From a virus, in the IMG/VR virus record IMGVR_UViG_3300043444_000502, positions 64,001 to 128,000 of that record: 64,000 bases of DNA; one strand, given 5' to 3'. A program made the position numbers and the translations under genes. The notes beneath the pieces were generated by a model that saw only the letters and a list, made by a program, of their open reading frames with translations, did no database searches and was not told where the DNA came from. Position 1 is the stretch's first letter, and the number at the start of each line of letters is the position of its first letter. Below are positions 811 through 64,000 of the stretch, piece by piece.

Positions 811-1881
811 ATGCGTGATTTTATTATTGAAAAGAAACGTGATCCTGAACAAGAATATACGCTTCATTTATTTGAACATTGCAATCTAAGATGTTCATTT
901 TGCTGGCAAGACCATGAAAATAAAGCAGGGTTGGATACAGTAATTGATAAATTAGATCCTATTGAACTATTCCTTAAAACGGAACAGCGCCACTCTGTAG
1001 TATTCAATGCTATGGGTGGCGAAGTTTTTTCCGATGAAATATTTGATGAAAAACTTTTGCAATCATATAAAGATTTATCATGGGGCATTAAAGAGTTAGG
1101 AAAAAAATATAATAAACTCGTTAAAATTAATTGGGTTACAAACTTAGTAACTCATAAAATTGATTATATTGAAGATTTACTAAATTATTCAAAAACTATT
1201 GGTTTAGAAGCACAATTAGTTACATCATATGATCCGCGCGGAAGATTTAATATAAATCAGTTCGAAGTTTTTAAAAAGAATATGGAATATTTTGGCAAAA
1301 GAATCACATGCATTAGTATGTTATTAAATGCACCAAATATTGAATACATCTTAAAAGATAAAGATTATTATTTCAAAAAGCTTTATAATGAAGGTTATTA
1401 CATATATTTTGATTATTATATGCCAGATGAATCAGCTGAATTTCAAGCTCCATCTGACATTCAATTAAAAAATGTTTTTAAACATTTAATAGATAATTAT
1501 CCTAATGTTCATCCAATATCTGACTGGATTAACAATGATAAAAATTATATTTCATGCAGAACTAGTAAATTGGTTTTAGCTGATGGAACAATCTGTAATT
1601 GCGGTAATTTAGTACAAGACGAAAAAGTTATTAAATTTTATTCATCTAAAATAGAAAAGATGGATAATTCAACCATTGAAAATAATTTTTTACAAAAATA
1701 TAATTGTGCTTCATGTGAATATTTGGATAGATGTACATTAAGTTGTTTTATGCAACATGATTATAAATTTAGGGAAGAACTTGATGAGTGTGTCTACAAA
1801 CTTACGCACAGATATATCGATGATGTTAGATTACAGCGAAAAGCCAACACCTCTATCGATAGTCCCTCCAAATCATATTGA
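811..1881 (+). CDS. Radical SAM protein with SPASM-like C-terminus
   Basis: A 356-residue enzyme with the radical SAM CxxxCxxC motif at Cys24, Cys28 and Cys31 (sequence CNLRCSFCW). These residues bind the [4Fe-4S] cluster that cleaves S-adenosylmethionine. A GGE segment near residue 70 fits the SAM-amino-group motif. The last 110 residues hold clustered cysteines (CNCG, CASC, CTLSC and a late C), the pattern of SPASM/twitch domains that bind auxiliary Fe-S clusters in peptide-modifying enzymes. It starts one base after the previous stop and overlaps the next gene by about 98 bases. The family assignment is firm; the substrate is unknown. Confidence 0.88.
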   Translation: MRDFIIEKKRDPEQEYTLHLFEHCNLRCSFCWQDHENKAGLDTVIDKLDPIELFLKTEQRHSVVFNAMGGEVFSDEIFDEKLLQSYKDLSWGIKELGKKYNKLVKINWVTNLVTHKIDYIEDLLNYSKTIGLEAQLVTSYDPRGRFNINQFEVFKKNMEYFGKRITCISMLLNAPNIEYILKDKDYYFKKLYNEGYYIYFDYYMPDESAEFQAPSDIQLKNVFKHLIDNYPNVHPISDWINNDKNYISCRTSKLVLADGTICNCGNLVQDEKVIKFYSSKIEKMDNSTIENNFLQKYNCASCEYLDRCTLSCFMQHDYKFREELDECVYKLTHRYIDDVRLQRKANTSIDSPSKSY

Positions 1882-2383
1882 AGTATCTTTAGATACTGTA
1901 CCAACAAATTATCCGTATTTACCTAGGATTTGTTCTAGACAAGGATATGTTTTTATGTGGCATACAAATAAAAATGAATATCCAAATTTGTATCAAGTAT
2001 CCCAAAATTGTAAAACTGAATCTCAGTGGTTTACTACTAAAGACCAAAATGGCATCGAATTAGCATTAGCACTTATTCATGAATATGACAATGAAGTAAT
2101 TATTGGATGTGTAAAAACAGCAGGTTATTTAAAAAATGAACCTAAAGAGTTTGTACATACACTTATAAAAAATGTATGGAAAGACATAATTAAAACGTTT
2201 GGACATAAAAAAATTATATGTCCAAGTAGTTCATATCTAGAATACATACATTTATTTTTAAATCAAAAGAGAATTCCACATACTCCATATTGTAAAAAAT
2301 ATATGACTAAAAATAAATTCTATAGAATTGAAAACTATTGGATTAGAGATGGACTTAATAATAAAACCGACAGAAAAGTGTAA
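1784..2383 (+). CDS. Hypothetical protein between two radical SAM genes
   Basis: About 199 residues. I chose the ATG at 1784 over the upstream in-frame 1757 because AGGGAAG at 1771-1777 is a good ribosome binding site for it. A later pair of ATG codons near 1820 is possible. The protein has aromatic and Cys residues but no motif I can assign; its mixed alpha/beta look could fit an acyltransferase-like fold, which is only a guess. Its 5' end lies inside the upstream radical SAM gene and its 3' end inside the downstream one, so it is translationally linked to both and may be a partner or recognition protein. Confidence 0.65.
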   Translation: MSVSTNLRTDISMMLDYSEKPTPLSIVPPNHIEVSLDTVPTNYPYLPRICSRQGYVFMWHTNKNEYPNLYQVSQNCKTESQWFTTKDQNGIELALALIHEYDNEVIIGCVKTAGYLKNEPKEFVHTLIKNVWKDIIKTFGHKKIICPSSSYLEYIHLFLNQKRIPHTPYCKKYMTKNKFYRIENYWIRDGLNNKTDRKV

Positions 2384-3374
2384 TTTTAAATGCACGTTTT
2401 GTTCTTCTACACATATTACTGATGATAAAAGTGTAGAACTTGATCATGCAAAAATCTTTCAGTTCTTAGAAAGATATCCCAATACAAATACTATTATTGT
2501 TAATGGAGGAGATCCATTAATGATGCCTCCAGAATATTATCAAGAAATACTAGATTGGTTAGATGAACGAAATTATAAAACTACCATAAGTTTTACAACA
2601 AATCTTTGGCCGTTTTATAAGAATCCTACAAAGTGGTCAAATATATTTTCACATAAAAGAGTTGGAGTGACTACATCATTTCAATATGGTGGAGGTCGTC
2701 TTAAAGGAGATTTAACAGAATTTAGTGAAGAAGATTTTTGGAATGTTTCGAATTTATTTGTAACATATTTTGCTTATAGACCTAACTTTATCTCAGTTAT
2801 TACAGAAGAAAATGAACATCTTGCAATTAAAAACGTTGAACTTGCAAAAAAGATGAACACAGAATGTAAATTAAATTATGCGATGTCTTCAGGACCTCCT
2901 GTAAAATTTAAAGGTATTATTATGGGTCAAGAAGGTAAACCATATCTTCTTGCAAAGATCTATGAAATTTATGTTGAAATTTGGAAACGCGGATTAGCTC
3001 CTTGGGAGTTTAATACTAAACAAATGATGCAACGATTAAAGGGTCATGCAACATGTTGTCCACAAAATCGTGATTGTGATTCTGGTATCAGAGTTCTTCA
3101 ACCATCTGGAGATTATTATTCATGCGGTGCATTTGGAGATGATAGGCAATATCCAATTAATTTCTACAAAGAAATGAATGGAGAATTTATTCAACCATTA
3201 AAGCATCAGTTTGAATTACAAACAATGACTCCTAATTGTTACGGTTGTTCTATGTTCGATATATGTAATGGTTGTAAAAAAACAATCAAAGATCACAAAG
3301 ATTACAATTTAACAGAAATACATTGCAAAAAAATGAAATCATTAGCTCAGGATATAATTTATGCTAATAACTGA
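2349..3374 (+). CDS. Radical SAM protein with SPASM-like C-terminus
   Basis: A 341-residue radical SAM enzyme. From the ATG at 2349 the cluster motif is Cys11, Cys15, Cys18 (CNFKCTFC), the usual N-terminal place. A TTG at 2328 is less likely. A GGDP motif follows in the first third. The C-terminus holds many Cys (CCPQNRDC, then SCGAF, CYGCSMFDICNGC and a last CKK), as expected for SPASM-type auxiliary clusters. It overlaps the previous gene by 35 bases and the next by 14. It differs clearly from the radical SAM proteins at 811 and 3897, so it is not a recent duplicate. Confidence 0.88.
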   Translation: MDLIIKPTEKCNFKCTFCSSTHITDDKSVELDHAKIFQFLERYPNTNTIIVNGGDPLMMPPEYYQEILDWLDERNYKTTISFTTNLWPFYKNPTKWSNIFSHKRVGVTTSFQYGGGRLKGDLTEFSEEDFWNVSNLFVTYFAYRPNFISVITEENEHLAIKNVELAKKMNTECKLNYAMSSGPPVKFKGIIMGQEGKPYLLAKIYEIYVEIWKRGLAPWEFNTKQMMQRLKGHATCCPQNRDCDSGIRVLQPSGDYYSCGAFGDDRQYPINFYKEMNGEFIQPLKHQFELQTMTPNCYGCSMFDICNGCKKTIKDHKDYNLTEIHCKKMKSLAQDIIYANN

Positions 3375-3900
3375 TATACACAATGAGTTTTTTAATAATG
3401 GTTTTTGCAAATTTAATGATCCAGAAGTATTTAAATTTTTACATGACATAGATTCTTGGGAATGGAAAAACTGGAAAGATCAAGGATTACAATTAATTAA
3501 ACGCAATCATACTATTGAATCTGCCATAATACAAACACAAAAATATATTGGTGAAAAATATATTTGTAAATTGGATGAAAATTATGTTTTGGGTGACGAG
3601 TGCGAAATAGTTAATGGAATGGATGATGCAACATTAACGTGGCATAATGACAATATTGAAGGTTATAATTTGTGTGTTTTATTATATTTTGATTCTATGG
3701 ATGAAGATATCGGTGGCATGACTCGTTTTAGAGATATTAACACTAAAAAATTGACTGGAGAATTTTATCCACAGCAATATGATGTTTCTTTTATGAATCA
3801 TTGTTTAAGATTTCAACACGTTGTAACTCCATTAATTTTAGATATGCCAAGAAGAGTTGCGTTATTTAATTATAAAATAAATGAGATTTTGACAGGATGA
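3361..3900 (+). CDS. 2OG-Fe(II) oxygenase-like protein
   Basis: A 179-residue protein with the layout of a 2-oxoglutarate/Fe(II) dioxygenase. An HxD pair (His95, Asp97 in WHNDN) is followed by beta-rich sequence, a distal His153 (FQHVV) and Arg164/165 before a hydrophobic strand. In this family HxD...H binds iron and the late Arg binds the carboxylate of 2-oxoglutarate. The size matches prolyl/lysyl-hydroxylase-like phage proteins. It overlaps the radical SAM genes on both sides (ATG inside the upstream stop region; its TGA overlaps the next ATG), so it is part of the same operon. Substrate unknown. Confidence 0.75.
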   Translation: MLITDIHNEFFNNGFCKFNDPEVFKFLHDIDSWEWKNWKDQGLQLIKRNHTIESAIIQTQKYIGEKYICKLDENYVLGDECEIVNGMDDATLTWHNDNIEGYNLCVLLYFDSMDEDIGGMTRFRDINTKKLTGEFYPQQYDVSFMNHCLRFQHVVTPLILDMPRRVALFNYKINEILTG

Positions 3901-4829
3901 TACTTTCAATCAATCCATGGTATTATTGTAATTTCAGATGTGAATTTTGTTATCTTACAGAAAAACAATTATCTGATAAAAAGCTTTTATCGCTTGACAA
4001 ATTAGCGAATATATTAGGCGAAATTGTTGCGCATAAACAAATTGATATGGTTGATTTATATGGCGGAGAATTGGGATTATTACCAAAGGAATATTGGAAT
4101 GATTTGATACAATTATTGCATAATTATGGAATATATGATATTAATTTAATTACTAATTTATCAATGATTAATGATATTACTATAGATGAACGAGTTTATA
4201 CATCAGTTAGTTATGATTTTAAAGCTCGTGAAGATTTTTTCAGAGTGTGGAAAAATATGGCTTTAATGAATAAACCATTTTCTATATTAATGTTAGCATC
4301 TCCAGGATTAATTAGCGAAAGCATTGACGATATAGTTTCAATGTTTAATTCTTTAAAAAATCTTGAATCTGTTGAAATTAAACCATACAGCAAAAATCAA
4401 GCCAATCAGTTTTCTATCAAAGATGATATTTACGAAGAATATGTCAAAAAATGGATATTACATAAAGATCGTAAATTTAAATTGGTTAATGAATCTCTCC
4501 TGGAATCTGTAGTAAATAGATCTAGGAATAGTTTTTCTGATGATCATGTTTATATTACACCCAATGGAAAATATGGCGTATTAGAATTTGATTTGAATGA
4601 TAATGAATATTTTTTAGAATATGATACTTTAGACGAATATTTTGCTTGGTGTGAAACTGAAAAAAAGAGAGTTTCTAAAAATAAATTCTGTAGTAGTTGC
4701 AAGTATTTTGGAAGGTGTTTATCAGAACATCTTAGAGATGTTAAAAGTTTAGATAATAGTTGTAATGGATATTATAAATTAATTGATTGGTATGAAAGAC
4801 TGGAAAATAAAACAAGAAATATATCATAG
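3897..4829 (+). CDS. Radical SAM protein
   Basis: A 310-residue radical SAM enzyme with Cys11, Cys15, Cys18 (CNFRCEFCY) close to the N-terminus and a GGE motif near residue 60. The C-terminus has a compact Cys group (FCSSCKYFGRC, then SCNGY), which looks like a short twitch or SPASM remnant binding one extra cluster. It starts by a 4-base ATGA overlap with the preceding oxygenase and overlaps the next gene by 38 bases. It is the third and smallest radical SAM enzyme in the cassette. Confidence 0.87.
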   Translation: MILSINPWYYCNFRCEFCYLTEKQLSDKKLLSLDKLANILGEIVAHKQIDMVDLYGGELGLLPKEYWNDLIQLLHNYGIYDINLITNLSMINDITIDERVYTSVSYDFKAREDFFRVWKNMALMNKPFSILMLASPGLISESIDDIVSMFNSLKNLESVEIKPYSKNQANQFSIKDDIYEEYVKKWILHKDRKFKLVNESLLESVVNRSRNSFSDDHVYITPNGKYGVLEFDLNDNEYFLEYDTLDEYFAWCETEKKRVSKNKFCSSCKYFGRCLSEHLRDVKSLDNSCNGYYKLIDWYERLENKTRNIS

Positions 4830-5190
4830 GTTGAATATTCAACATGATGATGATTTAAGTACTAAAGATATTCAAATTAGTACTAATATTATTGAAGATG
4901 CTATTAAATATTTTAATGAACGAGATCTTGGTTGGTTATATCCAGCTAAAAGTTATATGGTAGCTATATGTTATGCTAAATGGATAGCTAAAGAATTTAA
5001 TGAAAATAGAATGGATCTTTTAAATGATCCAGATTTATTACATGGTAATGATCCATATTTTGTGCCATATACACAAGATCCAGATACATATATCGGAATT
5101 TTTCAAAAGATTAATAGTTGGGATTTTGACGAATCTGCCGGAATGGTGCCAGATGTTAGATCATATTTCGAAAAAGAATTTATGTTATGA
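4792..5190 (+). CDS. Hypothetical protein in modification cassette
   Basis: A 132-residue, mostly helical protein rich in Trp, Tyr and Asp, with a conserved-looking block around GNDPYFVPY. The ATG at 4792 is preferred to an upstream TTG at 4783. It lacks cysteine clusters and an HxD motif, so it is neither a radical SAM enzyme nor an oxygenase. It sits between the third radical SAM gene and two tandem oxygenase genes and overlaps both neighbours. I do not recognise the family. Confidence 0.7.
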   Translation: MKDWKIKQEIYHRLNIQHDDDLSTKDIQISTNIIEDAIKYFNERDLGWLYPAKSYMVAICYAKWIAKEFNENRMDLLNDPDLLHGNDPYFVPYTQDPDTYIGIFQKINSWDFDESAGMVPDVRSYFEKEFML

Positions 5191-5699
5191 AGTTATATGA
5201 TCTGTGGCCAACTCGTGTAGTTAATGTAGATGTTCCATTGGACCTATGCACCAAAATTTATTCACAACATATCAATGTTCAATCTAAAGATTATGAAGAA
5301 GTCCTAGATGATAATGATAAAAGAACGTTGTTAGAATATGTGAATCGTTATTACCTGGCGGAATATGATATATGTGATGGTTGGATTAGAACTCTAACAT
5401 CTAAAGGTCATAATAATTTCGAATTGCACTGTGATAGTCATTATGGCAATCAATTGGTTGGTGTACTTCAATTGTTTGGTGATGAGGATAGAGGCGGAGA
5501 TATTAAATTATATGATCCAGCTTGGAGAAATCCTCAATGGATGTCAGATACTAAAAACAAGAATAGTAACACATTTGTAGTACCATTTAAAGCAGGTCAG
5601 TTTATTATATTCCCAGCTAATGTTTGGCATAGTGTTGAAACTTATTATGGTGAATCAAATAGAGTCACTTTAAATTTAATGTTTAGAAGAATAACATGA
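5187..5699 (+). CDS. 2OG-Fe(II) oxygenase superfamily protein
   Basis: A 170-residue protein starting with a WPTRV strand, as is common in the phage and marine-bacterial 2OG-Fe(II) oxygenase family of the PF13759 type. Likely iron ligands are His81 and Asp83 with the distal His148 (VWHSV); Arg159 (SNRVTLNLMF) would bind 2-oxoglutarate. The RGGDIKLYDP block is also typical of this family. It overlaps both neighbours by 4 bases (ATGA). With the following gene it forms a tandem pair of related but diverged oxygenases. Confidence 0.82.
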   Translation: MKLYDLWPTRVVNVDVPLDLCTKIYSQHINVQSKDYEEVLDDNDKRTLLEYVNRYYLAEYDICDGWIRTLTSKGHNNFELHCDSHYGNQLVGVLQLFGDEDRGGDIKLYDPAWRNPQWMSDTKNKNSNTFVVPFKAGQFIIFPANVWHSVETYYGESNRVTLNLMFRRIT

Positions 5700-6268
5700 T
5701 AAAACAACTTTGGCCAACATATTTCATGCAAGACACTATGGAAACTAGTATTATGCATGAAATGATATATTATCTAACTGTAGAATGTGACTTCAATAAA
5801 CCTCCATCTGATTTTGGATTAGAGAATATATTAGATAGTAAACATCCATCAGTATTAAAGTTCAAACAACAAGTTATTATTCCATCATTTAATAAGTATT
5901 TAAAAAATACCATCAATAAACAAATTGATGATTGGGCTGGATATAAAATGAAAGGTTGGTTAGCAGGAACTGGAAATGATTATAGTTTAAATTACCATAA
6001 TCATAGGGGAGCTCAAATTTCTGCAGTTTTTTATTTGTTATGTGAAGATCATAATAAAGGAGGTAATATTGCTTTTACTGATCCTAGACAAAACGCCAAT
6101 AGAGGATATGATGAAAACTTTACTCCATGGTTTAATGATGAAATTTTAAAGGTAAAATCTGGTGACATCGTAGTATTTCCAAGTTTTTTATATCATTTTG
6201 TCAGCACATATCGAGGATCTATGCGGTTGGCAATGCCTGTAGATTTATTTTTACATACTAACTCCTAG
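5696..6268 (+). CDS. 2OG-Fe(II) oxygenase superfamily protein
   Basis: A 190-residue relative of the preceding gene. It has the same LWPT N-terminus, an iron-binding HxH at His101/His103 in place of HxD, GGNIAFTDPR, a distal His167 (LYHFVS) and Arg177. HxH variants occur in this family. It overlaps the previous gene by 4 bases and is the last gene of the cassette. The next gene begins only after a gap of about 56 bases that carries a late promoter, so this is a clear end of the unit. Confidence 0.8.
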   Translation: MIKQLWPTYFMQDTMETSIMHEMIYYLTVECDFNKPPSDFGLENILDSKHPSVLKFKQQVIIPSFNKYLKNTINKQIDDWAGYKMKGWLAGTGNDYSLNYHNHRGAQISAVFYLLCEDHNKGGNIAFTDPRQNANRGYDENFTPWFNDEILKVKSGDIVVFPSFLYHFVSTYRGSMRLAMPVDLFLHTNS

Positions 6269-15390: not shown

Positions 15391-17013
15391 ATGCAAGTTA
15401 AAAGTGTCTTAATTGTTGGTGGTGGTAGTTCAGGATGGATGACAGCTGCAGCGATTAAAAAACAATTGCCACATATTGATATTACATTAGTTGAATCTGA
15501 TAAAGTTCCAACTATTGGAGTGGGCGAATCAACAATTGGTCAAATCAACAGTTTTATGATGGCTGTTGGTTTAAAAGATAAAGATCATGAATGGATGCCT
15601 AAATGTAATGCTACATATAAAACATCCATTAGATTTACAGATTTCAGAGAAAAAAATGAAAAGCCTAATACTTTTCATTATCCATTTGGAATATTTGATT
15701 TAACTGACAAAGAACGTGGTGCGATGGATTGGTTCTATATGCAATTAGACGATCCATCTATTCCTCCAGAAAATTTTGCTGAATTTTATCATGATCACGT
15801 TATCATGGCAAATCAGATGAAATTTACTGATAACAAAGATCATGAAATTAGAATGTTTAATTTTAAGTTTGATACTGCATATCATATGGATGCAGCGTTA
15901 TTTGGACAATACTTAAAAAATAATATTTGTATTCCTGAAGGTGTTAAACATATTGTTGATGATGTTACAGGAGTAATTCAAAATGAAGATGGTTATGTAA
16001 CTGGTGTTACAACGGTAACAAATGGTGTATTAAAAGCTGACCTATTTGTTGATTGTACTGGTTTTAAATCTATGTTATTAGAAGGTGCTATGGGAGCAGA
16101 GTTTGTTTCTTTCCATGACACGCTAATGAATGATAGTGCAATTGCTACAATTATTCCATATCTAGACAAAGATAAAGAAATGTCTAGTGTAACAAACTGT
16201 ACAGCAATTGATGCTGGTTGGGTTTGGAATATTCCATTATATAATCGAATCGGCACAGGTTATGTGTATTCTTCAAAGTTTGCAACTAAAGAAGAAGCTG
16301 AAGCACAATTTAGAAAACATTTGGCTTCAGATAGAATGGATTATGTCGATGAACGTTCTAAAGAACGTGCTGAACAAGCAGAATTTAGACATATTAAAAT
16401 TAAACATGGATGTCATAGACGTTCTTGGATTAAAAACGTAGTAGGTGTTGGTTTAGCTAATGGGTTTATTGAACCATTAGAATCCACTGGTCTTATGTTA
16501 ACGCATGAAGCAATTATGAAATTAATTGATGTGTTAGACATGAGAGATGGCTATGTAAATCAATATGATATTGATACATTCAATTTTACAATGTTTGATC
16601 AAGTAAATGGATTTAAAGAATTTATTTCTTTACATTATACTCTTTCTAAGAGAAATGATACTCCATATTGGAAACATGTAACTGAAGGTTTTACATATTC
16701 CAATGAAATGATTGAATGGAAACCTAAAATTAGAAATCCATATACAGATTTAGCATATAGAAATTTAGTAAATCACACATATGGTCCAGATCAGGGCGGT
16801 TTAATTTATATTGCAGCTGGTCATGGTTATAATCCATTATCTAAGCGTTGGATTGATGATGAAGCTCAACGCATTAATATAAATATGGGATATGATATAA
16901 AGAAAACTAGGAAGTTGTGGGAAGATCACGTTAAAGAGTTACAAATAACTTTAGACAAACTTCCGACACATTATCAATGGTTAAAACAAAATTATTACAA
17001 TAATCAGGAGTAA
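15391..17013 (+). CDS. Flavin-dependent halogenase (tryptophan-halogenase family)
   Basis: A 540-residue protein with every hallmark of flavin-dependent halogenases (PF04820). These are the FAD-binding GGGSSG at 10-15, the WxWxIP motif as WVWNIP at 277-282, a lysine at 77 in the position of PrnA Lys79, and FIEPLESTG at 359-367 near the chloride/flavin site. These enzymes use FADH2, O2 and halide to make HOX, which passes through a tunnel to the lysine. Its length equals tryptophan 7-halogenases. No flavin reductase gene is visible, so reduced flavin probably comes from the host. A related cyanophage enzyme (VirX1) has been characterised. Substrate unknown. Confidence 0.9.
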   Translation: MQVKSVLIVGGGSSGWMTAAAIKKQLPHIDITLVESDKVPTIGVGESTIGQINSFMMAVGLKDKDHEWMPKCNATYKTSIRFTDFREKNEKPNTFHYPFGIFDLTDKERGAMDWFYMQLDDPSIPPENFAEFYHDHVIMANQMKFTDNKDHEIRMFNFKFDTAYHMDAALFGQYLKNNICIPEGVKHIVDDVTGVIQNEDGYVTGVTTVTNGVLKADLFVDCTGFKSMLLEGAMGAEFVSFHDTLMNDSAIATIIPYLDKDKEMSSVTNCTAIDAGWVWNIPLYNRIGTGYVYSSKFATKEEAEAQFRKHLASDRMDYVDERSKERAEQAEFRHIKIKHGCHRRSWIKNVVGVGLANGFIEPLESTGLMLTHEAIMKLIDVLDMRDGYVNQYDIDTFNFTMFDQVNGFKEFISLHYTLSKRNDTPYWKHVTEGFTYSNEMIEWKPKIRNPYTDLAYRNLVNHTYGPDQGGLIYIAAGHGYNPLSKRWIDDEAQRININMGYDIKKTRKLWEDHVKELQITLDKLPTHYQWLKQNYYNNQE

Positions 17014-55079: not shown

Positions 55080-57596
55080 ATGGAATTCTATACTAATATA
55101 TCTCGTTACGGCAATCAACTCCTTTATCGTGGATACAAGGATGGTCGCCGTATCCAAACAAAAATCCCCTTTTCTCCAACACTTTTTGTCCCAGTAGAAA
55201 AACCTACGGGATGGATAGCTGTCGATGGAAAACATGTTGAACCATACCGTTGCGAAACTATGCGCGACGCAAAAGAATTTATGGAACGTTATAAAGATGT
55301 TTCTAATTTCGAAATCTATGGTAACACTAATTATATTGCACAATTCGTTACTGAAAAATTTCCAGGAATAATTAAATTTGATCCTACAATTGTCAATATT
55401 ACTTCAATCGATATCGAAGTAGCTTCTAATGAAGGTTTCCCAGAACCAGAAGAAGCAAAATATCCAATCATTTCTATCGCAATTAAGAATAATATTGATA
55501 ACACATATTATGTGTGGGGTCTTGGACCTTATGATGTAAGTAAATCTATTATGCAAAATAATAGAGTTGTGTATGTTCAATGCAAAGATGAACAAGAATT
55601 GTTAGTTCGATTTATAAATCATTGGGGTTCAGCTACACATATTCCAGATATTGTTACAGGTTGGAATATTCGTAATTTTGATATTCCATATATCGTCAAT
55701 CGTTGCGCTCGTATCCTTGATGGTGATACTATTAGAAAATTATCTCCATGGGGTAGAGTCGAAGAAAAACTTGTTACAATGCAAAAGAAACAAGTTCAAA
55801 TGTATGATATCATCGGTATTGCACAACTTGACTGGATGGATTTATTTAAAAAGTTTGGTCACACTTATGGTCCACAAGAAAATTATCGTCTAGATACGAT
55901 TGCTAATACTGTGCTTGGTGAACATAAGCTTGATTATGATGGCACACTACACACATTGTACATGACTGATCATCAGAAGTTTATCGACTATAACATTCGA
56001 GATGTTGATCTTGTTGTTCGTATGGAAGAAAAAGTTGGATTGATCGTTCTATGTTTGACTATGGCTTATAAAGCTGGTGTTAACTATAACGATACATTTG
56101 GTACTACTTCTATTTGGGATACATTAATCTATCGTTATCTTACTCCACAAAATATTGCGGTACCTCCAAATAGAGAATCATTCAAAGAAGCTTATGATGG
56201 TGGTTATGTTAAGGAACCGCAATGTGGTGTGCATGATTGGGTTGCATCATTCGACGTAAACTCTCTGTATCCAAACATCATTGTACAATGGAACATGTCA
56301 CCTGAAACTATCGTTAAAGGTCGTCATGATCATCGTGTAAGTCCTGATTCTATTCTCGAAGGTTATGTACCTGAGAAGACTGAATATGGTGTATGTGGTT
56401 CTGGTCAAATGTTCTCTAATGAGAAACAGGGTTTCATGCCTAAGATTATTGAAGAACTATATGATGAGCGTGTTAAAGTTAAGAAGATGATGCTAGCTTC
56501 TAAACGAGAACTTGAATCATGTGATAAAACAAATAAGCAAGAAGTGTATAGAATTGAACGTGATATTGTTCGTTATGAAAATGAACAAACAGCTATTAAA
56601 CTTTTGCTTAACTCACTTTATGGTGCACTTGGTAATAAGTACTTCCGTTACTTTACGATGGAGATTGCAGAAGGCATCACATTATCTGGCCAATCGATCA
56701 TTCGTTGGGCTGAAAAAGCAGTTAATGATTATCTAAATAAAGCACTAAGAAACCAAAAGTACAAAGACTATGTCATCGCTATTGATACTGATTCTGTTTA
56801 TGTTAATCTTGGTGAGGTTGTTAAGGCGTCGAAATTAACAGACAAAACTAAGATCACTAACTTCCTTGATAAGTTGTGCAGTGAAGCATTAGAATCTGTA
56901 TTGGATAAAGCATTCATTCAGATTACAGAAAATATGAATTGCTTTAAGAAGCGTCTAACTATGAAGCGTGAAGCTATTGCAGATCGTGCCATTTGGACTG
57001 CTAAGAAACGTTATATCTTAAATGTACTAGATAACGAAGGTGTACGATATGCAAAACCGAAGCTTAAGATCATGGGAATCGAGGCGATCAAGTCCTCAAC
57101 ACCGGGCACGTGTCGCGAGGCTTTTGAAGAATTGTTTAAAGTGCTCATCTCAGGTACGGAAACTGAAACTCAAACTTTTATTCAATCTTATAGAGAAAAA
57201 TTTGAGTCACTTCCGCCCGAAGATAAAGCGTTCCCGCGCGGGGTTTCACAAGTTAAGGAATACCAATCGCGTGATACGATCTACAAGAAAGGTACGCCGA
57301 TAAATTCACGTGCTGCTATCTTGTATAATCATATGCTTGATAAAAACGGATTGAAGACTTATACACCAATCCGTGGTGGTGACAAGATTAAGTACATTTA
57401 TTTGTATCCAAACAATCCAACAAAAGAAGATGTAATTGGATTTGTAGATATTTTACCACCTGAATTTAAACTAGATAAGTATATCGATAACGATAAACAA
57501 TTTGAAAAGGCTTTTCTTGAACCAGCTAAATTAATTTTAGATGCTATCGGTTGGAAAGCTGAACCAGTTGCAACATTAGAGGACTTTTTTGGATGA
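55080..57596 (+). CDS. 43: DNA polymerase gp43 (family B)
   Basis: An 838-residue family B polymerase (T4 gp43 is 898). Exonuclease motif SIDIEV near 111-116, motif A FDVNSLYPNI near 390, motif B around KLLLNSLYGALGNKYFRY near 510, motif C IDTDSVY near 567. I chose the ATG at 55080; the upstream TTG lies inside the promoter. No ribosome binding site is visible. Around 57040-57300 G/C content rises sharply. It overlaps a halogenase gene by 4 bases. Confidence 0.96.
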   Translation: MEFYTNISRYGNQLLYRGYKDGRRIQTKIPFSPTLFVPVEKPTGWIAVDGKHVEPYRCETMRDAKEFMERYKDVSNFEIYGNTNYIAQFVTEKFPGIIKFDPTIVNITSIDIEVASNEGFPEPEEAKYPIISIAIKNNIDNTYYVWGLGPYDVSKSIMQNNRVVYVQCKDEQELLVRFINHWGSATHIPDIVTGWNIRNFDIPYIVNRCARILDGDTIRKLSPWGRVEEKLVTMQKKQVQMYDIIGIAQLDWMDLFKKFGHTYGPQENYRLDTIANTVLGEHKLDYDGTLHTLYMTDHQKFIDYNIRDVDLVVRMEEKVGLIVLCLTMAYKAGVNYNDTFGTTSIWDTLIYRYLTPQNIAVPPNRESFKEAYDGGYVKEPQCGVHDWVASFDVNSLYPNIIVQWNMSPETIVKGRHDHRVSPDSILEGYVPEKTEYGVCGSGQMFSNEKQGFMPKIIEELYDERVKVKKMMLASKRELESCDKTNKQEVYRIERDIVRYENEQTAIKLLLNSLYGALGNKYFRYFTMEIAEGITLSGQSIIRWAEKAVNDYLNKALRNQKYKDYVIAIDTDSVYVNLGEVVKASKLTDKTKITNFLDKLCSEALESVLDKAFIQITENMNCFKKRLTMKREAIADRAIWTAKKRYILNVLDNEGVRYAKPKLKIMGIEAIKSSTPGTCREAFEELFKVLISGTETETQTFIQSYREKFESLPPEDKAFPRGVSQVKEYQSRDTIYKKGTPINSRAAILYNHMLDKNGLKTYTPIRGGDKIKYIYLYPNNPTKEDVIGFVDILPPEFKLDKYIDNDKQFEKAFLEPAKLILDAIGWKAEPVATLEDFFG

Positions 57597-59071
57597 ACAC
57601 TAGAATTAAAAAAATGATTATTGTAGGAGGCGGTACAGCTGGTTTAGTTGCTGCCATTATTCACAAACGCCTAAATCCCACTATTGAGATTCAAGTTTTA
57701 GAATCATCAGAGATTGGAATTATCGGCGTTGGAGAAGGTAGCACAGAACATTGGAATATGTTTATTGACCAATGCAATCTAAGTCGTGCAGAAGTGATGA
57801 AAGAATGTGCTGCTACCATTAAAACTGGCATTAAGTTTGTAAATTGGAATGGCAAAGGTGATGACGACGTGTATTTTCATTCAGTGATTGGACCATATGA
57901 TTCAGTGTTCATCAATGGAGTGTTTTCATATTGGACTAATGCATTAGTTACAGGTAAGTCATCAGTTGAAATGACATCGCCTAGAATTCCTGTAAGTATG
58001 TTCCAAAAGGGTGATGGTCCAGGAACTAATCAATATCATTTCGATACCTTTAAACTTAATCAATATTTGCATAAAGTAGCAAAGGAACGTGGTGTTATAT
58101 TTACCGATGCAATAGTCAATGAAGTAAAATTAAAAGAAAACGGTTATGTAAAATCTTTAATTGATAATGCTGGAAATGAATACGTAGCAGATTTTTTCAT
58201 CGATGCTAGTGGATTTAATAGAGTTATCATGAATAAACTAGGAGCAAAATGGATTGATTGCAAAAAGTATTTGCCAATGAATCATGCAATTGCTTTCCCT
58301 ACAGAATATCAAGAAGATATTGACGCATTTACGACTGCACACGCTAGAAATGCAGGTTGGTCATGGCGTATTCCAACTCAAGAACGATTTGGTAATGGAT
58401 ACGTTTTCTGTGATGATTATATCACAAAAGAACAAGCACACGCAGAAATGGAACAAATCTTTGGTAGATCTATTGAAATCGGCCGAGATATTAAATTTGG
58501 TGCAGGTCATGTGGATAGACCGATGATTAATAACTGTACTGCTATTGGTTTAGCTGGCGTTTTCGTTGAACCACTTGAAGCTTCTAGTATTGGTGCAACT
58601 ATTCAACAGTGTTTTGCGTTATCAACATCATTGCAAATGTATGAAGAAGGTAATAAAACATTAGAGAATATTCATAACAAGCAAATGCTTAAAATGTTCT
58701 CAAATATTATTGACTACATTCAAATTCATTATTTTACAAAGCGTGATGATACAGCATTTTGGAAAGATAAACCGTTTGAAATTACAGAATTTAATAAAGA
58801 AACTATTGATACAATGAAACGTTCATTGCCTTCTATTCATTATTTCCAAGATCCATATCTTATGTTTAGACATGTAAATTGGTTTATGACTATGGAAGGA
58901 TTAAAGTTATTTGACATTGAAGAAATTAAGCGTATTCACGCTGAACAACCACCACAGGCTTGGGAAGAAGTGAATACATTTTTTGATAACGCAACTATCG
59001 CATTTAGAGAAGGTGCAAAAAACAAACACCGCGATCAATTGCAAGATATCATGAGCGGTATGTACAATTAA
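57593..59071 (+). CDS. Flavin-dependent halogenase, second copy
   Basis: A 492-residue protein of the tryptophan-halogenase family. GGGTAG at 12-17 for FAD, Lys77 in the PrnA Lys79 position, WxWxIP as WSWRIP at 256-261, and FVEPLEASS at 324-332. It is diverged from the halogenase at 15391 and shorter by 48 residues, so the substrates probably differ. Its ATG overlaps the stop of DNA polymerase (ATGA), which ties its translation to polymerase. Substrate unknown. Confidence 0.9.
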   Translation: MNTRIKKMIIVGGGTAGLVAAIIHKRLNPTIEIQVLESSEIGIIGVGEGSTEHWNMFIDQCNLSRAEVMKECAATIKTGIKFVNWNGKGDDDVYFHSVIGPYDSVFINGVFSYWTNALVTGKSSVEMTSPRIPVSMFQKGDGPGTNQYHFDTFKLNQYLHKVAKERGVIFTDAIVNEVKLKENGYVKSLIDNAGNEYVADFFIDASGFNRVIMNKLGAKWIDCKKYLPMNHAIAFPTEYQEDIDAFTTAHARNAGWSWRIPTQERFGNGYVFCDDYITKEQAHAEMEQIFGRSIEIGRDIKFGAGHVDRPMINNCTAIGLAGVFVEPLEASSIGATIQQCFALSTSLQMYEEGNKTLENIHNKQMLKMFSNIIDYIQIHYFTKRDDTAFWKDKPFEITEFNKETIDTMKRSLPSIHYFQDPYLMFRHVNWFMTMEGLKLFDIEEIKRIHAEQPPQAWEEVNTFFDNATIAFREGAKNKHRDQLQDIMSGMYN

Positions 59072-59123: not shown

Positions 59124-59573
59124 ATGAGTGAATTTATGAACAGTAAATGGGTTGGTGATATTGCAGCAATGCATACAAAATTTGGCGTTAATAAAGTATT
59201 GCGTCAACTTGATCGTGATAAGCTTGAGGCATTCCTTAAGTTTCGAATTGACTTCTTGCAAGAAGAACTTGACGAGATGCGTAAAGCTGTAGTTGATCGT
59301 CAAACTGGCAAGATTGATGCAACTACTGCAGCAGATGATACAGTCGATGCATTGATTGATCTTTGTGTTGTTGCTATTGGTACATTGAATGCTTTCGACG
59401 TAAATGCAGATGAAGCATGGAATCGCGTACATCGTGCAAATATGACTAAGGAAGTTGGTATCAAAGAATCTCGACCAAATCCGCTTGGTCTTCCAGATCT
59501 AATTAAACCTGAAGGTTGGACAGCACCAACTCATGCTGATAACATAGGTATGTTGAACAAAGTATTTGAGTAA
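59124..59573 (+). CDS. MazG/PRA-PH-like NTP pyrophosphohydrolase
   Basis: A 149-residue all-helical protein. FLQEELDEMRKAV (about 44-56) and DDTVDALIDLCVVAIG (about 72-87) give the ExxE...ExxD-like metal site of MazG and phosphoribosyl-ATP pyrophosphohydrolase-type enzymes. The end (PNPLGLPDLIKPEGW) is common in phage members. It may remove dCTP or other nucleotides, which would fit a phage with modified cytosine, as an inference. Confidence 0.8.
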   Translation: MSEFMNSKWVGDIAAMHTKFGVNKVLRQLDRDKLEAFLKFRIDFLQEELDEMRKAVVDRQTGKIDATTAADDTVDALIDLCVVAIGTLNAFDVNADEAWNRVHRANMTKEVGIKESRPNPLGLPDLIKPEGWTAPTHADNIGMLNKVFE

Positions 59574-59917
59574 TGGCAATCTCAACACCTATCGGTCAGA
59601 TTAGGTACAACCCAAATACTCTATTTCAAGAGATTTGGGATGGAAAAACTTGGGTAGAAGTGGATGATACAGGCTTTACACAAATGCCTATTCATACCAT
59701 TTCTGCTAATACTATATCTACAACCGCAGCTTCTAATATTGTTAATACTAATTTGACTGACAACGCTAAAGAAGATTTATATCAATTTTTAAAATCAAAT
59801 CTAAGAGTTGGCGAATACTTAGATGAAAATGGTAAAATTGAATATGTTCAATTAGAACTGCGAGAAGGCGAAGGTTGCACTTGGGAAACAATTCAACGTG
59901 TAAGAATTAAACAATGA
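59573..59917 (+). CDS. Small hypothetical protein
   Basis: A 114-residue protein. It starts with a beta motif like that in fibre or virion proteins (QIRYNPNTLFQEIWDGKTWVEV). One-base overlap with the previous gene and ATGA overlap with the next place it in a nucleotide unit, which is an odd home for a virion-like sequence. Function unknown. Confidence 0.62.
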   Translation: MAISTPIGQIRYNPNTLFQEIWDGKTWVEVDDTGFTQMPIHTISANTISTTAASNIVNTNLTDNAKEDLYQFLKSNLRVGEYLDENGKIEYVQLELREGEGCTWETIQRVRIKQ

Positions 59918-60903
59918 AATATTCTTTGACAGCGTTTGAGTCTATTTTTGATAATAAGACTCATCGGCAAATACATCATGAAACTTGGGAAGCATTCGAA
60001 GCTATGCTTTATAAGATGGCTTCTATTCCTGGATATAAATTAAAAAAGGGCGAACGTCGTGCACCGAAAGGTCTAAAGGCTTCGCCTTTAATTACTCCTG
60101 CAGTTTATGCAGAAAATAAAACACGAGCTAATGATAACGTAATTGAATGGGCTGGTTGGGCTGCTATTGACGTAGATGATCATAAGTTCGAAGGAAATTT
60201 AAAGGACGAACTTCATGCTAAGTATGGCAATTATTATTACGTTTGTTATTCTACTAGCTCTAGTACGAGCGATCATCCTAAGTTTCGGCTTGTCTTCCCA
60301 CTTACGAATGGTGTTAGACAGTCATCGATCAAGCATTTCTGGTATGCACTCAACCGGGAATTCGATGGCATCGGAGATCAACAGACTAAGGACTTATCTA
60401 GAATGTACTATGTCCCTGCGACATATCCTAATGCTAATAACTTCATTTTCACTAATGTTGGTAGTTTTATTAATCCAAATGATTTGATGAATAAACATCC
60501 ATTTGTTGTAACGCAATCAAACGTTGCAACATTTATGGATAGACTTCCGCCAGAAGTGCAAAAGAAAGTTACTGCACATCGTGAAGAACTTTTAAAATCA
60601 CTTGCTAATTATGATTTTGAATGGTCATCATATCAAGATTGTCCATTTGTTAATAAAAAATTAGTCAGTGATTATGCATCAATTGCACATGCAGATGGTT
60701 CTGGTCGTTATGCTATGATTTATAAGATCATGTCATCTATTGCATGCAATGCAATAAAGAAAAAATATCCAATTACTGCTGCACAAATTGCAGAATTAAT
60801 TAGACAACTTGATAGAGATACATCTCGTAGATACCAAAAACGTCCTCTTCAAACAGAAGCAGAACGTGCATTAGAATATGCATATAAAACAGTTGAAATC
60901 TAG
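59914..60903 (+). CDS. Primase/polymerase-like (AEP-type) protein
   Basis: A 329-residue protein. WAAIDVDDH near 80-88 fits the hDhD metal motif of archaeo-eukaryotic primases; SSSTSDHPKFRLVFPL (about 112-128) and DLSRMYYVPATYP (about 155-170) fit the later core motifs. The C-terminal 110 residues are helical, like a PriCT domain. T4 makes primers with gp61, which is not in the window, so this could be an extra primase or a repair enzyme. Bases 60050-60420 are GC-rich relative to the surroundings. Confidence 0.58.
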   Translation: MKYSLTAFESIFDNKTHRQIHHETWEAFEAMLYKMASIPGYKLKKGERRAPKGLKASPLITPAVYAENKTRANDNVIEWAGWAAIDVDDHKFEGNLKDELHAKYGNYYYVCYSTSSSTSDHPKFRLVFPLTNGVRQSSIKHFWYALNREFDGIGDQQTKDLSRMYYVPATYPNANNFIFTNVGSFINPNDLMNKHPFVVTQSNVATFMDRLPPEVQKKVTAHREELLKSLANYDFEWSSYQDCPFVNKKLVSDYASIAHADGSGRYAMIYKIMSSIACNAIKKKYPITAAQIAELIRQLDRDTSRRYQKRPLQTEAERALEYAYKTVEI

Positions 60904-60957: not shown

Positions 60958-61332
60958 ATGCAAAAACAATATTCACGTCCATCAGCAAATATTTTGCTAG
61001 AAGCAGCCGAAATTCAAGAGAAAAAGGGTCAAGATTATAATAATGCCGTATCAAGTGTTGAACAAGCAGACTATTACCCGCGCGGTGTAACTTCTATTCT
61101 TGATATCATTAACGCAAAATATCTTCGTATGGTATCTGTACTTGAGACTATGCAAGCTGGTGGAAAGGTTAACTTCGAATCAGTCGAAGATTCAGCACTC
61201 GACATGATCAATTATGCGTCATTTGTAGTAGCTTATATGCGTGGTCAAGTACCCGGTCAAAAACCTGGTTATGATATCTTTAATCGTAAATCTGACGGCA
61301 ATCCTGCATTACTTCCATCTTCTAAGGAATAA
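60958..61332 (+). CDS. Nucleotide-modification-associated protein (DUF1599-like)
   Basis: A 124-residue helical protein. KKGQDYNNAVSS, YYPRGVTSILDIINAKYLRM and SVEDSALDMINYASF match the DUF1599 / nucleotide-modification-associated domain 1 family often found beside thymidylate synthase-like genes in phages. It precedes the hydroxymethylase-like gene by 1 base. The biochemical role of the family is not settled. Confidence 0.75.
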   Translation: MQKQYSRPSANILLEAAEIQEKKGQDYNNAVSSVEQADYYPRGVTSILDIINAKYLRMVSVLETMQAGGKVNFESVEDSALDMINYASFVVAYMRGQVPGQKPGYDIFNRKSDGNPALLPSSKE

Positions 61333-61333
61333 T

Positions 61334-62041
61334 ATGATTCGTAATTACGTATATGATATTCAACAAGAATTTGCACGTAAACTTGTTGAACAAGAATTTG
61401 TCACTGATAAAGGTGGTGCAAAAACAATTGAAATTATTAATGCATCTTTTATTGCTGATGAGAAATCTATTTTTGGCGAAGTTAATGAAGACTATGTAAA
61501 ACGTGAACTTGAATGGTATCGTTCAATGTCATTAAATGTTAACGACATTCCAGGTGGTACACCTGCAATTTGGAAACAAGTTGCTGATAAAAATGGCATC
61601 ATTAATTCGAATTATGGTTGGTGCATTTATTCTGAAGAGAATCATCATCAGTTTACAAAAGTTGTTGATGAATTAGTTAAGTCACCATTGTCACGTCGTG
61701 CTACAATGATTTACATTCGTCCAACAATGCATGAAGATTATAAGGCGAATGGTATGTCAGACTTCATGTGTACTTACTCAACTCAATATTATATCCGTGA
61801 TGGTCAACTTCATGCTTCAGTTTTTATGAGATCTAACGATGCAGTTTATGGATACAAAAATGATTATGCATGGCAACGATACGTACAAAAAGAAGTGCTT
61901 CAAGCAATCAACGGTAAGTGTAATACTGTATATGCTCTTGGTGATCTTCACTGGAATGCTGGTAGTCTTCATGTCTATGAGCGGCACTTTGAACTAGTTG
62001 ATAAATGGGCTATTAATGATGGAGACTTCATTGTCAGATAA
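61334..62041 (+). CDS. 42: dCMP hydroxymethylase (T4 gp42-like)
   Basis: A 235-residue thymidylate synthase-fold enzyme. The sequence follows T4 gp42 closely as I know it: ASFIADE, RELEWYRS, GTPAIWKQVA, NSNYGW, SDFMCT, MRSNDA, KNDYAWQ, SLHVY. Glu60, Cys146 and Asp177 correspond to T4 Glu60, Cys148 and Asp179. The Asp, in place of the Asn of thymidylate synthases, selects cytosine over uracil. It makes 5-hydroxymethyl-dCMP. I chose the ATG at 61334 (AAGGA upstream), not the longer frame. Plain thymidylate synthase is the alternative. Confidence 0.88.
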   Translation: MIRNYVYDIQQEFARKLVEQEFVTDKGGAKTIEIINASFIADEKSIFGEVNEDYVKRELEWYRSMSLNVNDIPGGTPAIWKQVADKNGIINSNYGWCIYSEENHHQFTKVVDELVKSPLSRRATMIYIRPTMHEDYKANGMSDFMCTYSTQYYIRDGQLHASVFMRSNDAVYGYKNDYAWQRYVQKEVLQAINGKCNTVYALGDLHWNAGSLHVYERHFELVDKWAINDGDFIVR

Positions 62042-62477
62042 TAAATGGAATGATCGTTATATGGCTATGGCCAAAGAAGTTTCTCTTTGGTCTAAAGATC
62101 CTAATACTAAAGTTGGTGCAGTTGCAGTTGGAGAGAAAGGACAGATTCTATCTCAAGGATATAATGGTTTTCCCCGCGGAATTTTGGATTCTCCTCAACG
62201 CTTAAATGATAGAGAAACTAAATATCGTTTTGTAGTTCATGCAGAAATGAACGTAATTTACAATGCTACATATTCAGGAGTTTCTCTTGATAATGCAAAA
62301 TTATTTGTTTATGGATTACCTGTTTGTAGCGAATGCGCTAAAGGTATTATTCAAGTAGGTATTAAAGAAGTATATGTTGCAAAAGAATGCATTGATTTGA
62401 GACCACATTGGTTTGAATCATTTCAAAAAACTATGGATATGTTTGAAGAAGTTGGAATTAAAGTGTTTGCCGTATGA
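62019..62477 (+). CDS. cd: dCMP deaminase
   Basis: A 152-residue zinc deaminase. His74 and Glu76 (VHAEMN) and Cys103/Cys106 (PVCSEC) form the zinc and proton-shuttle site; NTKVGAVAVGEKGQIL is the substrate strand. It turns dCMP into dUMP. The ATG at 62019 is preferred; 62016 and a TTG at 61998 also fit the frame. It overlaps the hydroxymethylase gene by 23 bases and competes with that enzyme for dCMP. Confidence 0.9.
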   Translation: METSLSDNKWNDRYMAMAKEVSLWSKDPNTKVGAVAVGEKGQILSQGYNGFPRGILDSPQRLNDRETKYRFVVHAEMNVIYNATYSGVSLDNAKLFVYGLPVCSECAKGIIQVGIKEVYVAKECIDLRPHWFESFQKTMDMFEEVGIKVFAV

Positions 62478-63625
62478 CAATTGAAACCACTAAATATTAT
62501 GATGAGTACTTGAGATACTTTGCTCTTGCTACTAAACAGCAAGAGCTTTGTAACTTTGGAACTACGTTACATACTGAATCAAATATAGATGATGATCTTA
62601 TGCATCATGTAGAATTATATGATGTAGTTGAACGTAAGTATGCCGGTTTCTCACAAATCGTTAATGATGCATTTTATGGATGGACAGATAAACATCCGTA
62701 TTGGGACAAGATGCAATCAGGTCATATCACACTTCAACGTGAAGTAGTAGCAAAAGATTGGACAGGTAAACATGCAGACTTTAAACTCGCTGAATGGTTG
62801 TATATCTTTATTCTGCATAGAGTTTGTGGTTCCGCGATTAATTATGCTACTAAGCCAAGCGGTTATTACAATACGTTACTCTTCAACTTGCACAAAGCCA
62901 AGACGATTGAAGGAATGGTTGAGATCGTAAACAAACATCCTAAACCATTCTACACTTCAGTTGGTTATCAGTTCCCATCATTCCCTAAACCACCAGCTGA
63001 CTCTTCATATAAGCGTAGTGGCGATTACTACTTAAGCGAATATGCACCACGTTTAGCTAGAGAGATGGCTGAATGGTTAGAAAAAGGCGGTAAGCGAGAT
63101 CTTCGCGAAATTGGTAGTTTCATGTTAGATTGGAATGAAAAGAATGGATTACGAAAGTATCATTTCCAATATGCAGCTGTTGTTGCAGACGTTGCTGATT
63201 GGTATCCGCAGTATGTTAATAGAGAATCACACTTCTATTATGGTACAAACGCTCGTGAATGTATTTCTTACTTAGCAAAACCAACAAAGAAAATGAAGGA
63301 AGATGAGTTCTTAGATGCAGTAATGACTAAGATCTATGAAGATACAGGCGCAGTACCATATAATGCTGAGGACGTATGTTGTGACTTTATTCGTTGGGTA
63401 GAAAACTATATTCGACCAGGCGCAGATTATAATCACTTAGACTTTGATTCTGTATGGTCATCATGTACGATTAAAGACCATCCATTTGGTAGACAAGAGA
63501 ATATGTTGAAGCTTGGATTGGTAAAGACATTTAATAATATTACTGCTCATCCATCAGATGATACAATTATTAAAGCAGCTGGTTTAACAGTAGAACAATA
63601 TAAAGAAAAATGCAAAACGATTTGA
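62474..63625 (+). CDS. Putative base-hypermodification enzyme (aGPT-Pplase-like)
   Basis: A 383-residue helical protein with many Trp, Tyr and His. Parts such as LRYFALATKQQELCNFG and HRVCGSAINYATKPSGYYN are reminiscent of the alpha-glutamyl/putrescinyl-thymine pyrophosphorylase families, DNA-glycosylase-fold proteins linked to hypermodified phage bases. I recall this only loosely, so the call is weak. It overlaps dCMP deaminase by 4 bases and sits in a nucleotide-modification unit, which supports a role on modified DNA or nucleotides. Confidence 0.5.
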   Translation: MTIETTKYYDEYLRYFALATKQQELCNFGTTLHTESNIDDDLMHHVELYDVVERKYAGFSQIVNDAFYGWTDKHPYWDKMQSGHITLQREVVAKDWTGKHADFKLAEWLYIFILHRVCGSAINYATKPSGYYNTLLFNLHKAKTIEGMVEIVNKHPKPFYTSVGYQFPSFPKPPADSSYKRSGDYYLSEYAPRLAREMAEWLEKGGKRDLREIGSFMLDWNEKNGLRKYHFQYAAVVADVADWYPQYVNRESHFYYGTNARECISYLAKPTKKMKEDEFLDAVMTKIYEDTGAVPYNAEDVCCDFIRWVENYIRPGADYNHLDFDSVWSSCTIKDHPFGRQENMLKLGLVKTFNNITAHPSDDTIIKAAGLTVEQYKEKCKTI

Positions 63626-64000
63626 TGGAATTTATCAGTGAACCATATGTGAACATCACATATGAAGGCACATCTCCAGTTACCTTAAAAAACGGTAAAC
63701 CAACTGAAAGTTGGATGAAAGACTGGACACAAGAACAACGATTCGAAAAGTTCTTTGAGTGGTGCCATGCATTTGATAAACGCGAAGATAAATTATTGCG
63801 AGAAGACTATCAAATCTTCTCGCATCGTCTACATTGGCATGAACATCCATTTGTAGATGTTATGAAGCCAATCACAGATAATAAACTGCGTTTATTCTAT
63901 ACGTTAGTATTCTCATTTAGTAATGAACATTGGGGTACGCTCATGTCATTAATGAATGATGGTATTATAACGACACGCGAACGTTTTAAAACTCAACGAC
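63625..64000 (+). CDS. Hypothetical protein, 3' end outside window
   Basis: An open frame that runs to the window edge (125 residues visible). The ATG at 63625 overlaps the stop of the previous gene (TGATG); an earlier in-frame ATG at 63610 is also possible. The sequence is rich in Trp, His and Phe (SHRLHWHEHPF, FYTLVFSFSNEHWG), with helical character. It continues the modification unit. No family recognised. Confidence 0.68.
   Translation, partial: MEFISEPYVNITYEGTSPVTLKNGKPTESWMKDWTQEQRFEKFFEWCHAFDKREDKLLREDYQIFSHRLHWHEHPFVDVMKPITDNKLRLFYTLVFSFSNEHWGTLMSLMNDGIITTRERFKTQR

Follow-up and report, generated by a model that had tools for sequence, protein, structure and literature searches.

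A four-gene cassette takes the place of DNA glucosyltransferase genes in the dCMP hydroxymethylase operon of a virus with T4-type replication genes

A viral gene for dCMP hydroxymethylase (HMase) raises the question of whether hydroxymethylcytosine (hmC) is the final base of the viral DNA or the precursor of another one. Such a gene was found in a window of 64,000 nucleotides, which corresponds to bases 64001-128000 of a virus record of 167,599 bases (IMGVR_UViG_3300043444_000502, hereinafter G000). In the original prediction, the gene was assigned to the T4 gp42 type and hmC was taken to stand in place of cytosine. Here, the enzyme, the genes that follow it and their counterparts in other phages were analyzed. 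Positions are those of the window unless a record name precedes them (Table 1).

The dCMP hydroxymethylase and its operon

In a phmmer search of PDB sequences, the top match of the window HMase was T4 deoxycytidylate hydroxymethylase (1b49, E 8.1e-80), and the best thymidylate synthase in the same search reached E 6.8e-13, the others being weaker. T4 gp42 was 55.7% identical to the window HMase over 221 amino acids (tblastn, E 5.4e-81), and the full-length protein was nearer to gp42 than to thymidylate synthase, which places it among gp42-type enzymes as predicted. Cys146 and Asp177 corresponded to T4 Cys148 and Asp179 in a direct alignment, again in agreement with the prediction, and were invariant in 32 of 32 aligned HMase relatives. 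The catalogued equivalent of T4 Glu60, by contrast, had been misnumbered: it aligned with Glu58 and not with Glu60 of the window HMase. Position 58 was Glu in all 32 aligned relatives and position 60 in just 12 of them. The Asp proposed to discriminate the enzyme from thymidylate synthase was shared by the window HMase and T4 gp42, whereas Asn occupied this column in the conventional synthases of two cassette-bearing phage records (L186, L187). A plain thymidylate synthase was ruled out because the discriminator Asn is missing. The whole record contained a single PF00303 protein and also encoded ThyX; therefore, the HMase is not the thymidylate synthase of this record, and hmU is not an obvious substrate. 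Judged from its sequence, the window gene encodes a genuine T4 gp42-type dCMP hydroxymethylase, and it is very likely that hmC is made by the phage.

Of the predicted replacement of cytosine by hmC, the synthesis of hmC stands as the obvious consequence of the enzyme. Full replacement is not established, since no homologue of gp56 (dCTPase; best E 2.1) or gp1 (dNMP kinase; best E 3.3) was found by tblastn in the record up to 599 bases from its end. These two proteins define the T4 pathway and not the HMase enzyme itself, and a MazG-like protein encoded upstream may act as a stand-in for gp56. The prediction had also pointed beyond the window for genes of a glucosyltransferase, a dCTPase and a gp1 kinase; no member of the T4 glucosyltransferase families was found in the record, and gp56 and gp1 had no homologue in the part just named.

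The HMase gene was surrounded by T4-type replication genes. The upstream order was DNA polymerase, tryptophan halogenase, PRA-PH/MazG-like gene, a small ORF, a primase-like gene, Nmad1/DUF1599 and HMase; downstream, HMase was followed by dCMP deaminase, orf383, orf327, orf326, orf320, uvsX, gp41 and ThyX, with uvsX and gp41 identified by eye and from conserved order. The dCMP deaminase, DUF1599-like protein and pyrophosphohydrolase named in the original prediction were thereby all located nearby. The Nmad1 gene, 1 nt ahead of the HMase start, adjoined HMase in most relatives. The MazG/PRA-PH-like gene, close to HMase in many relatives, encodes a candidate dCTP-clearing enzyme; according to the available text of PMC8670742, PRA-PH is found together with thymidylate synthase domains in contigs enriched for modification. 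The genes from HMase through orf320 overlapped by 17 (computed with a deaminase start at 62025, the likely ATG lying a few bases earlier), 4, 16, 4 and 25 nt, which points to one transcription unit. For the deaminase gene, which overlaps the HMase end, the probable start is the ATG at 62019 or 62016, and the listed ORF begins with a TTG at 61998.

Table 1. Positions of the HMase operon, the cassette and other genes in the window and its record
Feature	Position	Strand	Remarks
Three radical-SAM/SPASM-like genes	811-4829	+	by eye
Small 2OG-oxygenase-like proteins	3361-6268		by eye
Run of about seven ORFs	G000:6376-10625 (L201:6376-10625)		180-216 aa
Second tryptophan-halogenase-like flavoprotein	15391-17013	+	by eye
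Tryptophan halogenase-like flavoprotein	57593-59071	+	PF04820 E 1.5e-91
MazG/PRA-PH-like pyrophosphohydrolase	59124-59573	+	PF01503 E 1.2e-7; phrog_671 E 6e-22
Primase-family protein	59914-60903	+	329 aa; phrog_9765 E 7.7e-81
DUF1599/Nucleotide modification associated domain 1 (Nmad1)	60958-61332	+	PF07659 E 5.5e-4, below cut-off
dCMP hydroxymethylase (HMase), T4 gp42 type	61334-62041	+	intact ORF, 235 aa
dCMP deaminase	62019-62477	+	PF00383 E 1.1e-18
orf383	62474-63625	+	HhH-glycosylase-like protein (predicted)
orf327	63610-64000 (window part)	+	ends at G000:128593, beyond the window
orf326	G000:128590-129570		outside the window, after orf327
orf320	G000:129546-130508		outside the window, followed by uvsX

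Several other genes were observed. The primase-family gene was kept near HMase in the closest relatives. A tryptophan halogenase-like flavoprotein gene followed DNA polymerase, ahead of the HMase operon; a role in the pathway was dropped, as relatives L004 and L011 have MazG straight after the polymerase. The record also contained a second gene of this kind and, elsewhere, three radical-SAM/SPASM-like genes not typical of T4, with small 2OG-oxygenase-like proteins mixed among them. Several proteins from the run of about seven ORFs had a common N-terminal pattern and are possibly 2OG-Fe(II) oxygenase-like, as judged by eye.

Cassette and glucosyltransferase genes between dCMP deaminase and uvsX

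Within the HMase operon, the cassette of orf383, orf327, orf326 and orf320 occupies the slot in which relatives carry a DNA alpha-glucosyltransferase gene (AGT) and T4 carries beta-gt, the T4 order being 42, b-gt, segA, uvsX. Two AGT proteins were tested and matched PF11440 clearly (E 2.5e-90 and 8.1e-101); a C-5 cytosine methylase gene (PF00145) came after AGT. When IMG/VR was scanned with the HMase and the best 80 of 574 stretches were kept, a complete dCMP deaminase-uvsX interval was present in 44 of them: 10 contained the cassette, 10 contained AGT, none contained both and 24 contained neither. All 20 loci whose HMase was at least 71% identical to that of the window had exactly one of the two. 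The cassette and AGT states interleaved in the HMase tree (IQ-TREE), with five changes each, at least three being forced by strongly supported branches; in the uvsX tree there were two changes each, one of them forced. We read this pattern as repeated exchange of glucosylation with another hmC modification. Because the cassette lies in the slot of the relatives' DNA alpha-glucosyltransferase, hmC is more likely a precursor, and it is probably not the final base. A glucosyltransferase elsewhere in the record was ruled out, since no member of the AGT (PF11440) or beta-gt (PF09198) families was found in it.

In a MAG contig (L215), the order was HMase, deaminase, orf383, orf327, orf320, orf326 and a methylase that was 51% identical to the AGT-linked C-5 methylase. 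Homologues of this methylase adjoined the slot with either AGT or the cassette (L003:12699-13901, L006:6218-7423, L215:10353-11552); such an enzyme is surprising in phages that should have replaced their cytosine. Ten HMase records in which the slot held neither cassette nor AGT, or was cut off, were also searched. orf383 was found elsewhere in four of them (G003, G026, G030, G031) and orf326 alone in G002; neither was found in the remaining five, each shorter than 55 kb.

The cassette extended beyond the closest relatives. Among the best 80 of 188 IMG/VR stretches with orf327 relatives, orf383 was present in 76, orf326 in 74, orf320 in 61 and HMase in 16; around 39 orf383 loci, orf327 was present in 32, orf326 in 31, orf320 in 35 and HMase in 22, and a contig may contribute loci to each of the two sets. 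A very different polymerase neighbored the cassette in one distant group, and HMase was not seen within the stretch covered. PF00303 matches were obtained in 9 of 16 records searched. In the large distant records G008 (256 kb) and G012 (212 kb), conventional synthases were accompanied by a divergent, HMase-like member of the synthase family whose discriminator is Asp; its gene was split between frames in G012. With this divergent HMase as query, no match was found in the other 16 of the 18 distant-type cassette records, all of them possible fragments. The missing HMase in distant cassette records is the main result against a link of the cassette to hmC; since these records may be fragments, it neither proves nor disproves the link. 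In one distant lineage, a LOG/lysine-decarboxylase-family gene (PF03641, E 3.1e-31) lay inside the cassette (L116:11068-11739). A tblastn search of 50,697 phage records with orf383, orf327 and a distant orf383 relative gave no match.

Predicted functions of the cassette proteins

The AlphaFold2 model of orf383 (pLDDT 88.0, pTM 0.87) had its best PDB match (VIA-align) in 8z2n, the 5-phosphomethyl-dU glycinyltransferase gp46 of phage PaMx11, with a Z of 10.4, an rmsd of 4.0 and 211 aligned residues, values in the chance range for helical proteins. Next came queuosine-salvage DUF2419 and then 8-oxoguanine DNA glycosylases. In BFVD, the best viral model, 67% identical to orf383, bore the name Amino acid:DNA transferase domain-containing, and the HMUDK helical domain of phiW-14 also matched (probability 1.00, E 0.019). 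orf327, modeled via a 94%-identical homologue from L007 (pLDDT 87.9), likewise matched 8z2n best (Z 9.2, rmsd 4.2, 226 aligned; also in the chance range for helical proteins), followed by 8-oxoguanine glycosylase (Z 7.0). Its BFVD matches included a thymine pyrophosphorylase clade 1 model (probability 1.00, E 0.022), and a Foldseek search against PDB gave nothing below E 0.4.

Sequence comparisons of these proteins were largely negative. None of 39 orf383 members matched any Pfam family, and the 32 orf327 members showed scattered weak matches, with no ADDT or HMUDK_hel among them. Two homologues are named Amino acid:DNA transferase domain-containing in BFVD, but no member matched the Pfam model here; ADDT (PF18724) was found in none of six records. 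HMUDK_hel (PF18723), the mark of a partner DNA kinase, was likewise found in none of six records, and no kinase-like P-loop ORF was noticed. The profiles of orf383, orf327 and orf326 had no useful match in PDB. orf383 and orf327 did not match each other (hhalign probability 1%), and close paralogy was rejected. Since Pfam and mutual hhalign matches are lacking and, according to the tool's own note, chance alone can give helical proteins a Z near 10, the models indicate likeness and not membership: the predicted folds of orf383 and orf327 resemble amino acid:DNA transferases, and the proteins may work like them.

orf320 is a candidate PLP fold-type-II relative, with a PALP match below cut-off (E 2e-4), a profile match to cysteine synthases (E 0.001) and a Lys65 invariant in 35 of 35 members. 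A relative of orf320 was fused with an N6/N4 DNA methylase in gp1 of Erythrobacter phage R6L (L204:10780-13202), possibly another PLP-linked DNA modification; an annotated PAPS reductase gene lay a few genes from this fusion.

In orf326, GDSH, G194, I196, D197, H200, H201 and H311 were invariant in 38 of 38 members, and the GDSH, G-x-I-D and His residues may form an SGNH-like motif. Lipase_GDSL matched 5 of the 38 members weakly. T4 beta-gt matched 11 (E 0.0074 to 1), and in those displayed the match lay in the N-terminal region. Homologues of orf326 were found in 43 phage records, all from Aeromonas, Stenotrophomonas or Tenacibaculum phages and mostly annotated as hypothetical; the match to an Aeromonas homologue covered the whole length (hhalign, E 5e-70). 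They occur in the gene-42 Aeromonas phages 44RR, 31 and 25 and their relatives, and all six orf326-positive Aeromonas/Stenotrophomonas genomes tested encoded a gp42-type HMase (56-57%). The available text of Petrov et al. (2010; PMC2993671) reports genes 42 and 56 and no glucosyltransferases in 44RR, 31 and 25, and leaves open a replacement of glucosylation by another modification in such phages, naming RB69 and JS98.

In 44RR (44RRORF233c), AS4 and avDM5, the orf326 homologue had a C-terminal extension. That of avDM5 matched HMUDK_hel weakly (E 0.0037), a likeness that is suggestive only. Compared by hhalign, the extension gave a probability of 0.1% with orf383 and 0.2% with orf327, and a sequence link to either was rejected. 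orf383 was not found in the two orf326-bearing Aeromonas phages tested. Upstream of the orf326 homologue, Aeromonas phage Aes012 and Stenotrophomonas phage IME13 (L207, L212) carried a UDP-galactopyranose mutase gene and a gene of 358 amino acids, hinting at a galactofuranose step in these two HMase phages, and a sugar symporter gene was near orf326 in 44RR and AS4.

These sugar-related neighbors, together with the weak beta-gt and Lipase_GDSL matches, would fit a divergent hmC glycosyl- or acyltransferase in orf326, assisted by the other cassette proteins and yielding glycosyl- or acyl-hmC. We regard this as rather unlikely: orf326 aligned only weakly with T4 beta-gt in hhalign (probability 14%), and this reading gives no account of the two proteins with a transferase-like predicted fold or of the candidate PLP enzyme.

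A possible hypermodification pathway and comparison with known systems

On balance, we favor the reading that the cassette encodes a non-glucose, possibly amino-acid-based, pathway of hmC hypermodification, with appreciable room for doubt. The HMase identity, the single PF00303 protein alongside ThyX, the operon overlaps, the exchange at the slot and the 8z2n fold likeness support a cassette that decorates hmC, as do the PLP-type features of orf320, the orf326 homologues in gene-42 Aeromonas phages and the Asp-type HMase-like protein of G008 and G012. The kinase, gp1, gp56 and relevant Pfam matches that were looked for and not found, the chance-range Z values, the distant records in which HMase was not found and the two Aeromonas phages with orf326 but no orf383 count against it. 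In such a pathway, HMase would make hm-dCMP, which would be phosphorylated by a kinase, perhaps of the host, and incorporated by the polymerase, and MazG may clear dCTP. The cassette would then decorate hmC in DNA, after synthesis, by a route other than glucosylation. With less certainty, orf326 may activate or prime the hydroxymethyl group, orf383 and orf327, both of glycosylase-like predicted fold, may flip the base and join an amino-acid-type nucleophile to the 5-methylene, for which the addition of glycine to 5-phosphomethyl-dU by PaMx11 gp46 serves as a model, and orf320 may tailor or supply the adduct. Cytosine would thus end up with an amino-acid-type hypermodification, which would shield the genome from nucleases.

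It is unlikely that the phage simply carries plain hmC, perhaps in part of its cytosines, with a cassette that does something unrelated to DNA bases. No recognized hmC-glycosylating family was present in the record, and the cassette also occurred in distant phage contigs where HMase was not found, as this explanation would have it; against it stand the swap with AGT at one slot, the overlap of the cassette into the HMase operon and the resemblance in predicted fold of two cassette proteins to DNA glycosylases and a hypermodification transferase. Action of the cassette on nucleotides or another substrate, such as hm-dCMP or a thymine derivative, instead of hmC in DNA is very improbable, as the cassette exchanges with AGT, a DNA hmC enzyme, and the record, which encodes ThyX, offers no further PF00303 protein as a source of hmU, even though the closest fold relative, 8z2n, acts on an hmU-derived base according to its structure title and a LOG/lysine-decarboxylase-family gene is interspersed in the L116 lineage.

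Returning to hypermodification of hmC by the cassette, its extension to other phages is more tentative. Conceivably, in widespread T4-type and larger phages, glucosylation of hmC has been replaced by an amino-acid-derived hypermodification of cytosine via the cassette, a counterpart on cytosine of thymine hypermodification that does without the kinase known there, with orf326 as the likely key to how hmC is modified in Aeromonas phages 44RR, 31 and 25. What modifies hmC in phages that have gene 42 and lack glucosyltransferases, a question left open in the available text of PMC2993671, would become testable.

Whether a given restriction or CRISPR system can cut a phage depends on how its hmC is decorated. 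The decorations in the available text of the cited papers are sugars, a pentose and a carbamoyl group, including arabinosylation in RB69 (PMC6024577) and a pentose in phage Thanatos (PMC12838424); the accessible part of PMC8878043 mentions HMase-encoding Acinetobacter phages that have no known glucosyltransferase. The proposed pathway, if true, would extend the cytosine marks by one more kind of chemistry and would supply new enzymes for DNA labeling. No description of the cassette was found in the literature searched on hmC and hypermodified phage bases, of which little was subscription content.

Among known systems, the gene 42/b-gt module of T4 has a homologous HMase with the Cys and Asp kept, the same DNA polymerase and uvsX neighborhood, and modifying genes between HMase and uvsX. 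The present record differs from it in having four other genes in the slot, no AGT or beta-gt, and no gp56 or gp1 homologue found. Pathways of 5-hmdU hypermodification, as in PaMx11, phiW-14, ViI and M6, use an HMUDK kinase plus an amino acid:DNA transferase or aGPT-Pplase and involve PLP enzymes. The PDB structure that the orf383 and orf327 models match best, with Z values in the chance range for helical proteins, belongs to these systems, and the cassette has its own candidate PLP enzyme in orf320; unlike in these systems, cytosine is the hydroxymethylated base here, and neither an HMUDK or ADDT Pfam match nor a kinase was found. Aeromonas phages 44RR, 31 and 25 share gene 42 and an orf326 homologue with this record, but the homologue lies outside the gene 42 slot, and orf383 was lacking in the two tested. 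In the MetaGPA study, as far as its available text goes, Asp-type synthases stand with PRA-PH and dCMP deaminase in modification-enriched contigs, and an hmC carbamoyltransferase was characterized (PMC8670742). The locus resembles those contigs in its Asp-type enzyme, in its PRA-PH and dCMP deaminase neighbors and in offering an alternative to glucosylation, which is a 5hmC carbamoyltransferase there and the cassette here.
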